The notes under the pieces: model-generated | Seen by the model: only the letters and a program-made list of their open reading frames with translations | Databases searched by the model: none | Told to the model about the DNA's origin: nothing | Assembly (NCBI GenBank): GCA_030615745.1 | Contig: JAUWYR010000007.1 | Location: 5,405-69,404 of the forward strand | DNA: 64,000 bases | Direction: 5' to 3' | DNA from: Candidatus Zixiibacteriota bacterium | GTDB lineage: Bacteria > Zixibacteria > MSB-5A5 > SM23-73-2 | Shown here: piece after piece, positions 6,045-9,109 of the stretch | Layout of the letters: each line of letters begins with the position of its first letter | Position numbering within the stretch: the first letter of the stretch is position 1 | Position numbers and translations under genes: made by a program

Positions 6045-6435
6045 CCTATATAAAAGTGGTTTTTAAAAAATATTGGAGTGTAAACCTCAATGATTTTGTT
6101 TTTCAAAGACTTTACAGTAAAGCTAAAGCTTTATCATCAATCTCTTGATCCATATGGAGATGCCGAAGGTCAAGAGACTTCGCACACTCCAAAAGAAACC
6201 TTACAAGTTTGAATTTTTTTATATTTTTTAAAAACTTGATTCAATTTCCCTTAAAAGTATAGCTTTGGAGAAAATCTACTTTATGTAATCAATTGTTTGA
6301 TCAAAGTTTTCGTTTTTCCTTGTTGTAATCCCGAACGATTTTGAAAGATAAAAAATCTTTTTTTATCATTCAACTAAATCGAGCATCTCTAAAAGCTCTC
6401 TCAAGCAGTTAAAAGACGCATTAAATGAATGTAAT
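6045..6435. other. Intergenic region with a palindromic repeat
   Basis: No gene is visible in these 391 bases. They hold a 120-base element with 9-base terminal inverted repeats (6073-6192, listed separately), followed by AT-rich sequence. The region must contain the promoter for mreC on the minus strand, but no convincing -35/-10 pair was found by eye. Confidence 0.6.
6073..6192. repeat. Palindromic element with TTGGAGTGT terminal inverted repeats
   Basis: The ends are perfect inverted repeats, TTGGAGTGT at 6073-6081 and ACACTCCAA at 6184-6192. Inside are two further hairpins: TAAAGCT-AA-AGCTTTA near 6115-6130, and TCTCTTGA (6141-6148) paired with TCAAGAGA (6170-6177). Related ends recur at 41360-41425 and 51926-52015. 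No transposase or clear target duplication is visible, so it resembles a MITE or REP-like element. Confidence 0.75.
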
Positions 6436-6831
6436 TCATCCTCCTATTATTCCTAAAAGTTCAGATAATGTTTTATAAAAACGTCTTTCAAAGATTTCTT
6501 GATCTATCCTTGTAAATTTCCATTTTTTGTCAGTCAAATCCGTGACGTCCTCACACACATCAGCTTTGTCGAAATTGTTGGTTCTGCATTCTATTACTAC
6601 TTTTTCAACTTCTTCCATTGTTACCGGAGCGTTCAAAGGTCCCACGTGAACTGCTCTATCACCTTTTCTACCGTGCAAATATCTGAAACCAGTCAAAACC
6701 TGAGCCTGGTAGAGTTTTAGCATAAAGGCGAGGTATTCATCCTCTTTTTTCTGCCAGTAAACGGTTTCATAATTTCCAATGTTCCATAGCTCGAAAGGTC
6801 GGGCAGGCTTTCCGTAGTTCTTATTTTTCAT
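6436..6831 (-). pseudogene. Detached C-terminal fragment of the DNA methyltransferase
   Basis: This 131-residue reading frame begins MKNKNYGKPARPFELWN and continues with segments such as GFRYLHGRKGDRAVHVG. From memory of the family, these sequences normally follow the catalytic part of long Mod-like methyltransferases with no break. Here they are separated from it by the HepT/MntA pair. The start overlaps the hepT stop by 11 bases, so it may still be translated. After residue 91 (NNFDKAD) the expected family sequence stops and about 40 different residues follow (VTDLTDKKWKFTRIDQEIF and onward), which suggests an internal deletion joined to another gene's end. It could alternatively be a small functional protein; no enzyme motif is seen. 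Confidence 0.6.
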
Positions 6832-7177
6832 CTTCAGACTCCCCTTTTAGCACTTCCTGAATTTTCACAACTAAGTCTGGAATTTTATTTTGAATTATAT
6901 CCCATAAAATTTCATTGTCTACTCCAAAATATCCATGGATGACTATATCTCTCAAACCTACAATCTTCCTCCACTCAATCTTGGGATATTTTTGTCTTAT
7001 TTCATCTGGTAGATTTTTAGTTGCTTCGCCAATTATCTCAAGGTTTCTAACCACTGCATCTATTAGCATCTGGTCTTTTGTAAATTCCTCAAATGATTTA
7101 CCTCCGGTATAATCCAATATTCTATTGGCACAATCCCTGATATCAGTAATAAAGAGTTTATAATCTCTTTTAGGCAT
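6821..7177 (-). CDS. hepT: HepT-like HEPN-domain ribonuclease toxin
   Basis: This 118-residue DUF86/HEPN protein carries the HepT motif RX4HXY (R76, H81, Y83 in RDIVIHGY). In the characterised HepT-MntA systems the R and H form the RNase active site, and the tyrosine is adenylylated by the partner antitoxin. The MNT partner lies immediately upstream and its end overlaps the hepT start. Downstream, its stop overlaps the next reading frame by 11 bases. The pair sits within a DNA methyltransferase locus. All motif residues are present, so it is probably active. Confidence 0.9.
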   Translation of the reverse strand: MPKRDYKLFITDIRDCANRILDYTGGKSFEEFTKDQMLIDAVVRNLEIIGEATKNLPDEIRQKYPKIEWRKIVGLRDIVIHGYFGVDNEILWDIIQNKIPDLVVKIQEVLKGESEDEK

Positions 7178-7481
7178 AAGTTACCTCTGATAAAATATTT
7201 TGCTTTATTTCATCCCTTATTGTTGTTTTGATCACCAAATCAATCTTTGAGTTTAATATTTCTTCAAGGAAAAATTTAAGCTCCATATAGTTATCAAATG
7301 TTTTATAGCCATCTTCAAACTCAACCAGGATATCTATATCACTTTCCTCTCTCTGCTCACCTCTAACATAAGACCCAAAAACACCTATTTCCCTAATCTT
7401 AAATTTCTCTTTAATATTGATACTATGAAGTCTTAAAATTTTAATTATCTCACTTATAGATTTTGCCTTCCTACCTCTCAT
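7170..7481 (-). CDS. mntA: MntA-like nucleotidyltransferase antitoxin
   Basis: This 103-residue minimal nucleotidyltransferase has the GSYVRG motif (36-41) followed by SDID (47-50), giving the GS...DxD metal-binding centre. In studied HepT-MntA modules this enzyme neutralises HepT by adding AMP to its tyrosine. The start ATG overlaps the methyltransferase stop (ATGA), and its own end overlaps hepT by 8 bases, so the three genes are translationally coupled. Confidence 0.9.
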   Translation of the reverse strand: MRGRKAKSISEIIKILRLHSINIKEKFKIREIGVFGSYVRGEQREESDIDILVEFEDGYKTFDNYMELKFFLEEILNSKIDLVIKTTIRDEIKQNILSEVTYA

Positions 7482-8572
7482 TTTCCTTGCTCCTCATCCA
7501 CTAAATCCTTCGAATTATGAATATCCAAAAGCCTTTTTCTTGTAACCTGAATGGCAAATTTGGATAGATCAGACCCTATCCATCTTCTTCCAAGTTTTTC
7601 CGCAACTGCTAAGGTTGTGCCTGAGCCACAGAAGAAGTCTGCAATAATGTCGCCGGGGTCAGAAGAAGCAAGGATAATGCGTTTCAAGAGGGCTTCGGGT
7701 TTTTGGGTTTGAAAATCCAAAATTTCACCGTGGATATAGCCTATAGTTGCTACATCAGTCCACCAATCTTCTGGTAATTTCCCTCTCTTATCCAATGCCA
7801 TAAGATATTCGTCATCTTTTCGCCCTGTTAATGTAGTCCGTCCTGTTGCTAAGCTTGATTTTTTATAAGGCACTCTAAGTAAATCAATATTAAAAACATA
7901 CTTCTCTGATTTAGTGTATCGAAATATTATATCGTGTTTATCAGGAAAATCTCTACTTTGTCGTGATGGTCCTGTATAACACCATACTATCTCATTTCTG
8001 CAATTTGTCCATCCAAACACCTCATCCATCATTACCTTAACATAATGACCCACATGCCAATCTAAATGCACATAAATAGAACCATTCTCAGCCAGAAGTT
8101 CCCTCATCAAAACCAATCGCTCATACATATACTTGAGATAGGAGGCAATCCCGCCGCTCCAGGTATCTTTGTAAGCCCTCTCTTCTATAATAGAAGGTTC
8201 TTTTTCTATTCTTTCATCCCCAAGTTTTGTTCTTACAGTAAAATCCGCTCCCGTGAAAAATGGAGGATCAATATAGATGAGATTAATCTTTCCAGCCCAA
8301 CCCTGCTTTATCAATGACGACATAACAAATTTGTTGTCGCCCCAGATTAAAAGATTTTTCCAGTCCTTAGGATAGTTTTTAGGATATTCACTTTTGGGAT
8401 AAAATTCCTTTCCAAGCTCTTCTTCATATTCTTTCATCCTCGGTTCATTTATGGACTCTATCGTTTGAAAAGGAAGATTGGGTTTTTCTACCGGGAATTT
8501 TTCACCCAGATCAATCCTATCCAATTTGTCAGCCCAGATAAGCTCTACAAATTTTTTATTATTCCTGTTCAT
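7478..8572 (-). CDS. Adenine-specific DNA methyltransferase, Mod-like, truncated
   Basis: The protein resembles the Mod subunit of type III restriction systems (beta-class N6-adenine methyltransferase). The catalytic motif DPPF (about 102-105) precedes the SAM-binding motif FCGSGTT (about 314-320), with the TQKPEALLKRII motif before the latter. The first in-frame start is a TTG at 8605; the ATG at 8572, preceded by AAAGGG, is preferred and gives 364 residues. The protein ends at DEEQGK, where family members continue into a long C-terminal region. That region appears as the separate frame at 6436-6831. No restriction subunit is present nearby, so it may be an orphan methylase or a decaying system. 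Confidence 0.85.
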   Translation of the reverse strand: MNRNNKKFVELIWADKLDRIDLGEKFPVEKPNLPFQTIESINEPRMKEYEEELGKEFYPKSEYPKNYPKDWKNLLIWGDNKFVMSSLIKQGWAGKINLIYIDPPFFTGADFTVRTKLGDERIEKEPSIIEERAYKDTWSGGIASYLKYMYERLVLMRELLAENGSIYVHLDWHVGHYVKVMMDEVFGWTNCRNEIVWCYTGPSRQSRDFPDKHDIIFRYTKSEKYVFNIDLLRVPYKKSSLATGRTTLTGRKDDEYLMALDKRGKLPEDWWTDVATIGYIHGEILDFQTQKPEALLKRIILASSDPGDIIADFFCGSGTTLAVAEKLGRRWIGSDLSKFAIQVTRKRLLDIHNSKDLVDEEQGK

Positions 8573-8656
8573 ATCGTAAGACCCTTTGCATTCCCCTCCC
8601 TTCAATTACCCTACTTCTAAACCAACTTTTTAATTTGCCTGTAGCCGATTACTTTA

Positions 8657-9109
8657 TCATTCAACTGAATCTAAAATTTCTAAAAGCTCCTTGGGACTTT
8701 TTATCTTTAACAGCTTCTCTCTGTTCTCCTCGCTTTTCATAATATACGAAAGTCTTGCCATAACATTCAAATGGGAACCTATTGCATCCTCTGGAGCAGC
8801 TATAAGGAAAAAAAGGTGCACCAGCTTTTTATCCATGGCATCGAAATCAATCCCTTGGTCAGATCTTCCGAAAGAGATCACAATTCCTTTAACCGCCTTA
8901 CTTTTTGCATGGGGAAAAGCAACACCATACCCCACTCCAGTGGTAACAAGTTTTTCCCTTTCCAAAACCGCTTTTAAAAGCTCATTTTTATCCTTTACCA
9001 ATTTGGACTTCGATGCTAAATTCACAAGCTCTTCAATTACCGCATCTTTTTCTTTTGATTTCAACTCAAAAGATATCAGCCCCTCATCACAAAACCTGGA
9101 TAATTTCAT
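8657..9109 (-). CDS. ptsN: PTS IIA-like nitrogen-regulatory protein (PtsN family)
   Basis: This 150-residue single-domain EIIA of the fructose/nitrogen class has the phosphorylatable histidine in FPHAKS (His67). The usual TTGVGYGVAFPH context and an LIAAPED segment are also present. In other bacteria such stand-alone IIA proteins have regulatory roles rather than sugar transport. No other PTS gene is in the window. It lies 21 bases after the small zinc-ribbon gene and in line with accA, so the three are probably cotranscribed. Confidence 0.88.
   Translation of the reverse strand: MKLSRFCDEGLISFELKSKEKDAVIEELVNLASKSKLVKDKNELLKAVLEREKLVTTGVGYGVAFPHAKSKAVKGIVISFGRSDQGIDFDAMDKKLVHLFFLIAAPEDAIGSHLNVMARLSYIMKSEENREKLLKIKSPKELLEILDSVE

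Follow-up and report, generated by a model that had tools for sequence, protein, structure and literature searches.

One question raised by a toxin-antitoxin pair that lies inside the coding sequence of a DNA methyltransferase is whether the arrangement is a single accident or marks a place at which such modules repeatedly settle, and what either partner could gain from it. The locus considered here lies in a 64,000-nt stretch of DNA from Candidatus Zixiibacteriota bacterium (GCA_030615745.1, contig JAUWYR010000007.1, 5,405 to 69,404), referred to below as the window, on which all positions given without a locus name are counted. In this analysis, we argue that one family of type III Mod enzymes, itself widely transferred, probably offers a docking site for toxin cassettes in the linker between its N-terminal (ModN) and C-terminal (ModC) parts.

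Organisation of the locus

Four overlapping frames follow one another on the minus strand in the order methyltransferase, MntA, HepT and a 131-aa Mod-like frame. The first (7478..8572, 364 aa) encodes ModN, the N-terminal portion of a type III Mod methyltransferase including its catalytic part, which contains the motifs IYIDPPF and DFFCGSGT, matches PF01555 (N6_N4_Mtase; E 1e-48) and could alternatively start at a TTG at 8605. Its stop after DEEQGK overlaps the start of the antitoxin gene in a 4-base ATGA (7478-7481). MntA, a minimal nucleotidyltransferase of 103 aa (7170..7481), in turn overlaps HepT by 8 bases (7170-7177), and HepT, an intact HEPN RNase toxin of 118 aa (6821..7177), overlaps the last frame (6436-6831) by 11 bases (6821-6831). 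The last frame has its own ATG, and a GGGGAG inside the end of the HepT gene (6839..6844) is its probable ribosome-binding site. A preliminary description of this DNA had reported a complete HepT-MntA pair between a methyltransferase and a resuming Mod-like frame, with junctions formed by stop and start overlaps; all of this stands, and the overlap between MntA and HepT can be added to it. The start and stop codons are predicted to leave both halves translatable, as it had also proposed. A scan for internal promoters and terminators gave no informative signal.

The inserted pair has the defining composition of type VII HepT/MntA modules, a PF01934 HEPN protein (E 3e-32) with RX4HXY, here RDIVIHGY at residue 76, adjoining a PF01909 MNT protein (E 7e-19) with GSX10DXD at residue 36, both motifs being those described for class I HEPN/MNT pairs (PMC7641770). 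Against NF047751 and NF047752 (the latter the model for MntA) the scores of 53.6 and 53.1 bits fall below the 60-bit equivalog cut-off of NCBIfam, which is a naming threshold and not a defining property; judged by sequence, the pair belongs to this family and lies beyond its curated equivalog core. It is apparently an intact module, its activity, in which MntA would neutralise the RNase toxicity of HepT by AMPylation, being predicted from what is known of the family. The insert has starts and stops of its own and, by open reading frames and Pfam, holds only MntA and HepT, without the features of an intein, an intron or a transposon.

The 131-aa frame had been taken for the second half of Mod, a view that fails for this copy, in which the frame is a truncated Mod-Res fusion. 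Residues 1-92 (6556..6831) correspond to the first 92 of the ~265 codons of ModC and are 79-93% identical to the ModC of 18 relatives. Residues 93-131 (6436..6555) derive from the final 39 codons of a gene for Res, the type III restriction subunit, that has otherwise disappeared; they are joined in frame and 35-49% identical to the C-terminal ends of Res-like genes in L017, L023, L024 and L026-L031 (46% for L017 and L023), genes which in L017, L023, L024 and others sit 3-6 kb downstream. The protein junction reads KADV/CED, and in the DNA ModC codons ending GATGT join the Res codons TGTGAGGAC. A complete ModC was considered for this frame and ruled out, the tail being Res. An adjacent Res with ResIII helicase and endonuclease domain, present in the relatives L101 and L024, is represented in the window only by the 39-codon remnant; Res-like genes also occur in L026 and L028.

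The surroundings bear on how this copy arrived. G001, a genome from the same genus, has an empty site with a spacer of only ~296 bp between EIIA and mreC; in the window this interval measures 2.6 kb and is bounded by a 37-bp direct repeat, the original copy being the 3' end of the PTS EIIA gene (8653..8689) and the second, 86% identical by comparison within the window, lying on the far side of the cassette (6362..6398). No integrase gene was seen at the window locus. The locus would have entered between EIIA and mreC, after which a deletion, estimated at ~3 kb, would have removed the greater part of ModC together with almost the whole of Res and fused what remained, the frame being kept by chance. 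To judge from its reading frames, the window copy is a decayed restriction relic in which ModN, MntA and HepT are intact.

One linker, several kinds of insert

Relatives were collected by a genome scan with the 131-aa protein and by genome searches, their ModC being mostly 79-93% identical to that of the window. Close ModC relatives occur in archaea and many bacterial phyla, nearly all the loci being metagenome-assembled. The junction is readable in 25 relatives: 11 are unsplit (L015, L017, L022-L025, L027, L030, L105-L107), with a linker that reads ...RKRLLDIHNSKDLLDEKKKKYGNPARPFELWNIGNYE..., and 14 are split at the identical linker (the window, L013, L014, L016, two copies in L018, L019-L021, L026, L028, L029, L033, L101). 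As a rule a split ModC starts M-x-x-K-x-Y, a purine-rich GGAG-like site preceding nearly every one, and L019 and L020 are split loci without an adjacent Res. Viral contigs hold mostly distant relatives, and no close full-length relative of the joined ModN-ModC protein was found in plasmid and phage records. An IMG/VR contig (L147:299-2467) encodes a 722-aa ModN relative which ends shortly past the same linker, with no ModC.

Unrelated self-neutralised modules occupy this one identical point, comprising three MntA/HepT groups, at least two groups of MNT/HEPN class II and a SoFic-type Fic. By MNT identity they fall into window/L013/L026 (64-84%), L019/L028/L101 (62-81%), L014/L033 (69%), the first module of L016, and the second module of L016 with L021 and L020 (38-68%), with 22-47% between groups; the partners of the nested MNT proteins are, by Pfam, HepT-like (PF01934) or class II HEPN (PF05168). 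The Fic inserts of L018 and L029 are 74% identical to each other, and that of L018 matches SoFic in the PADLOC models and has a class II-like Fic inhibitory motif, SSQIEG. Among the 14 split loci, no recognisable cargo other than self-neutralised toxin modules was found.

In L069:1290-1493, HEPN has behind it a small third frame (KMRKEEAE...CDGGCEYC...), of which a remnant persists in L020:5700-6010, and upstream of the unsplit mod of L105 (genome G195) lies a gene beginning with an HNH-like CxxC...DHVIPL motif (L105:9168-10772). A second hotspot, for accessory genes of these type III systems, lies between ModC and Res or immediately behind ModC and contains a 23S-IVP-like gene (L017, L101), an HTH-M78 peptidase with DUF4411 (L017, L027, L028), or AAA and subtilase genes (L018, L023).

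Exchange of cassettes between Mod flanks

Cassettes are gained, lost and exchanged independently of the Mod flanks. On the ModC tree, whose deep branches are weak and whose change counts are made rough by recombination, the split loci do not form one clade (p-AU 5e-6) and at least 5 state changes are needed, an earlier run with partial rows having given 8. Nor is nested HepT one clade when set against the free-standing HepT of the same genomes (p-AU 1.8e-4), the nested HepT of L014 grouping with a free-standing one. A single origin of the split with vertical descent is ruled out by these two trees; the split may instead have arisen early, with cassettes exchanged and genes re-fused afterwards, a course for which the uniform start of ModC leaves room.

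The window and L013, the latter binned as the archaeon Candidatus Methanolliviera with binning errors possible, illustrate the exchange. At fourfold sites their MntA and HepT genes are the same in 38 of 45 cases (7 different), as against 44 of 111 (67 different) in ModN and ModC (Fisher P 3.6e-7), and identity climbs inside the cassette and drops toward its edges. Since the cassette is so much younger than its flanks, cassettes must move independently of them. At synonymous sites the window ModC is nearest to the unsplit L027, L023 and L015, not to L013. In L016, where two different MNT/HEPN modules are present, the final ~120 nt of ModN recur between them at about 95% identity (L016:2639-2764), which is what the arrival of modules through recombination in the ModN end would be expected to leave behind. 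The conserved flanks, the 3' end of ModN and the 5' end of ModC, would let new cassettes in by homologous recombination.

What the cassette and the restriction locus may gain

If the linker is a docking site, the cassette would gain a safe, mobile and co-transcribed location, and might in return make the restriction locus costly to lose, as an addiction or a backup device. The alternative that survives best is pure hitchhiking, in which the linker is simply a rare harmless place for insertion and the module, useless to the restriction system, decays there. The state of the toxins speaks for it: in the nested MNT modules MNT is open in 13 of 13, and HEPN is intact in 7 and broken or missing in 6 (P 0.015), by internal deletion (L014), frameshifts (L028 and L021), a stop (L033) or loss (L026 and L020); some of these breaks may be sequencing errors, though errors would strike MNT too. 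Six losses in 13 indicate that the toxin is not always needed at the nested site, and this decay favours a self-serving cassette over a guard required by the restriction system. Both the variety of unrelated module types and the loss of Res and most of ModC in the window also fit hitchhiking. It sits less well with the repeated acquisition of toxin modules that are specifically of a self-neutralised kind, with the seven modules whose toxins are intact, or with the long co-residence of module and flanks in L028 and L101, and we rate it as possible, a little short of an even prospect.

A broader form of the docking-site explanation would make the type III Mod gene a general cross-domain docking site with a working two-chain Mod, its translation coupled through the toxin module, so that loss or blockage of Mod unbalances the toxin; this we regard as doubtful. 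A guard resembling PrrC, in which the Mod/Res complex would hold or sense the toxin and let it go once a phage blocks restriction or restriction is lost, has precedent, this mode of action having been proposed for PrrC of type Ic loci and for the HEPN genes of many restriction neighbourhoods (PMC3710099), and the module does share overlapping frames with Mod. Against such a guard, the modules bring their own neutraliser (MNT, or SSQIEG in the Fic of L018), their interchangeability makes them ill-suited to specific binding by Mod, and no toxin is fused to Mod, so that we consider it unlikely. The preliminary description had suggested that HepT activity may be tied to loss of the methyltransferase; the frequent decay of toxins beside intact Mod halves and the swapping of self-neutralised modules would argue against restraint of the toxin by Mod itself.

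Ancestry and function of the split methyltransferase

As the single-gene reference for Mod we used the PADLOC profile for type III methyltransferases (MTase_III, PDLC03633, 616 positions), of which the first frame of the window covers 20-357 and the last frame 363-443, as compared with 20-615 for the unsplit Mod of L024 (632 aa). The halves of L013, L016 and L019 meet at the same place (20-357 and 363-613/616); in L101, ModC covers 363-615 and ModN matches in two stretches. Type III Mod is thus present in the window in two pieces, without its C-terminal third, and the flanking frames are not chance neighbours, because both match one profile. Stand-alone phage methyltransferases align only as far as residue 357-362 of the L024 Mod, and MboIIA (260 aa) only to residue 344, placing the break at a domain boundary; the AlphaFold model of the unsplit Mod, with a mean pLDDT of 56, is too poor for placing the linker.

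More distant Mod relatives, 28-45% identical, are contiguous wherever checked, including a paralogue in the genome of the window (L006:4441-6435), and for this reason one gene is taken as the ancestral state and the interruption as derived. The paralogue and the 942-aa helicase-like gene that follows it constitute a second, unsplit type III-like locus in that genome (L006:1604-6435). The expectation of the preliminary description that both parts are normally one protein is borne out by these relatives and by L022-L025, L027, L030 and L105-L107; the converse, with the parts usually separate or no contiguous protein, was looked for among relatives and did not hold. Its proposal of a precise insertion within one gene is likewise upheld, the break lying exactly at a short charged linker. 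An original state with two separate genes, from which the unsplit proteins would have arisen by later fusion, might be read from the uniform M-x-x-K-x-YGKPARPFE start of split ModC in nearly all split loci; given the contiguous distant relatives and the one profile spanning both parts, we rejected this ancestry as very improbable. Chance adjacency, an assembly chimera or pseudogene remains misread as structure, as the deletion in the window copy and the decay of L014 and L033 could suggest, is scarcely credible and was discarded for the family in view of an identical junction shared by 14 loci of many phyla whose inserts differ, full open frames in L101 and L016, and purifying selection.

Selection is also informative as to function. 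For loci that are split but keep a full-length ModC, pN/pS is about 0.10, similar to the unsplit loci, with synonymous sites near saturation. Between L028 and L101, which share a module class, it is 0.23 for ModN, 0.14 for MntA, 0.10 for ModC and 0.14 for Res, and the synonymous divergence of MntA is almost that of the flanks, as expected of long co-residence; L101 retains the complete set of ModN, MntA, HepT, ModC, a 23S-IVP-like protein and Res. Because both pieces are under purifying selection, in some cases with an intact Res, the split enzyme is probably functional in loci other than the window. Since a domain boundary coincides with the break, Mod would survive in the form of two chains, each translated on its own.

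Comparison with known systems

Restriction genes with neighbouring toxin modules are already known; what appears to be new here is a recurrent, precise site inside a methyltransferase coding sequence, occupied in bacterial and archaeal genomes alike by toxins that are unrelated to one another. The collection amounts to a natural replicated experiment on the acquisition and swapping of defence cargo, provides naturally split Mod enzymes together with unsplit relatives matched to them, and offers a direct way to ask whether restriction systems are stabilised by toxin modules. In the open-access literature searched, no account of a nested toxin site recurring inside mod was found.

The locus shares with type III restriction-modification of the EcoP15I type, which is defined by sequence-specific methylation and ATP-dependent cleavage, the Mod methyltransferase domain and, in intact relatives, a downstream Res helicase-endonuclease, but its Mod consists of two polypeptides with a toxin module between them, and the window has no Res. 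M.AquI is a naturally split methyltransferase in which one enzyme is formed from two chains, as is predicted for the split Mod, but it has no toxin module between its parts. Type VII HepT/MntA modules elsewhere have the same PF01934 and PF01909 proteins, the same RX4HXY and GSX10DXD motifs and MNT upstream of HEPN, and are usually free-standing operons, whereas here the module is nested within another coding sequence (PMC7641770). PrrC of the EcoprrI system and HEPN genes in restriction neighbourhoods, which are well described, likewise have a toxin RNase co-encoded with a restriction system; there, however, the toxin has a gene of its own, next to the subunit genes or between them and not within the methyltransferase frame, and fusions, if any, are to nucleases, helicases or other ATPases (PMC3710099). 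The MNT-HEPN module inserted in the lysine operon of Thermus thermophilus HB8 also represents a recent insertion into an operon, but as a single case, in contrast to the recurrent site inside one gene, filled by unrelated modules, that we describe here (PMC2701414).
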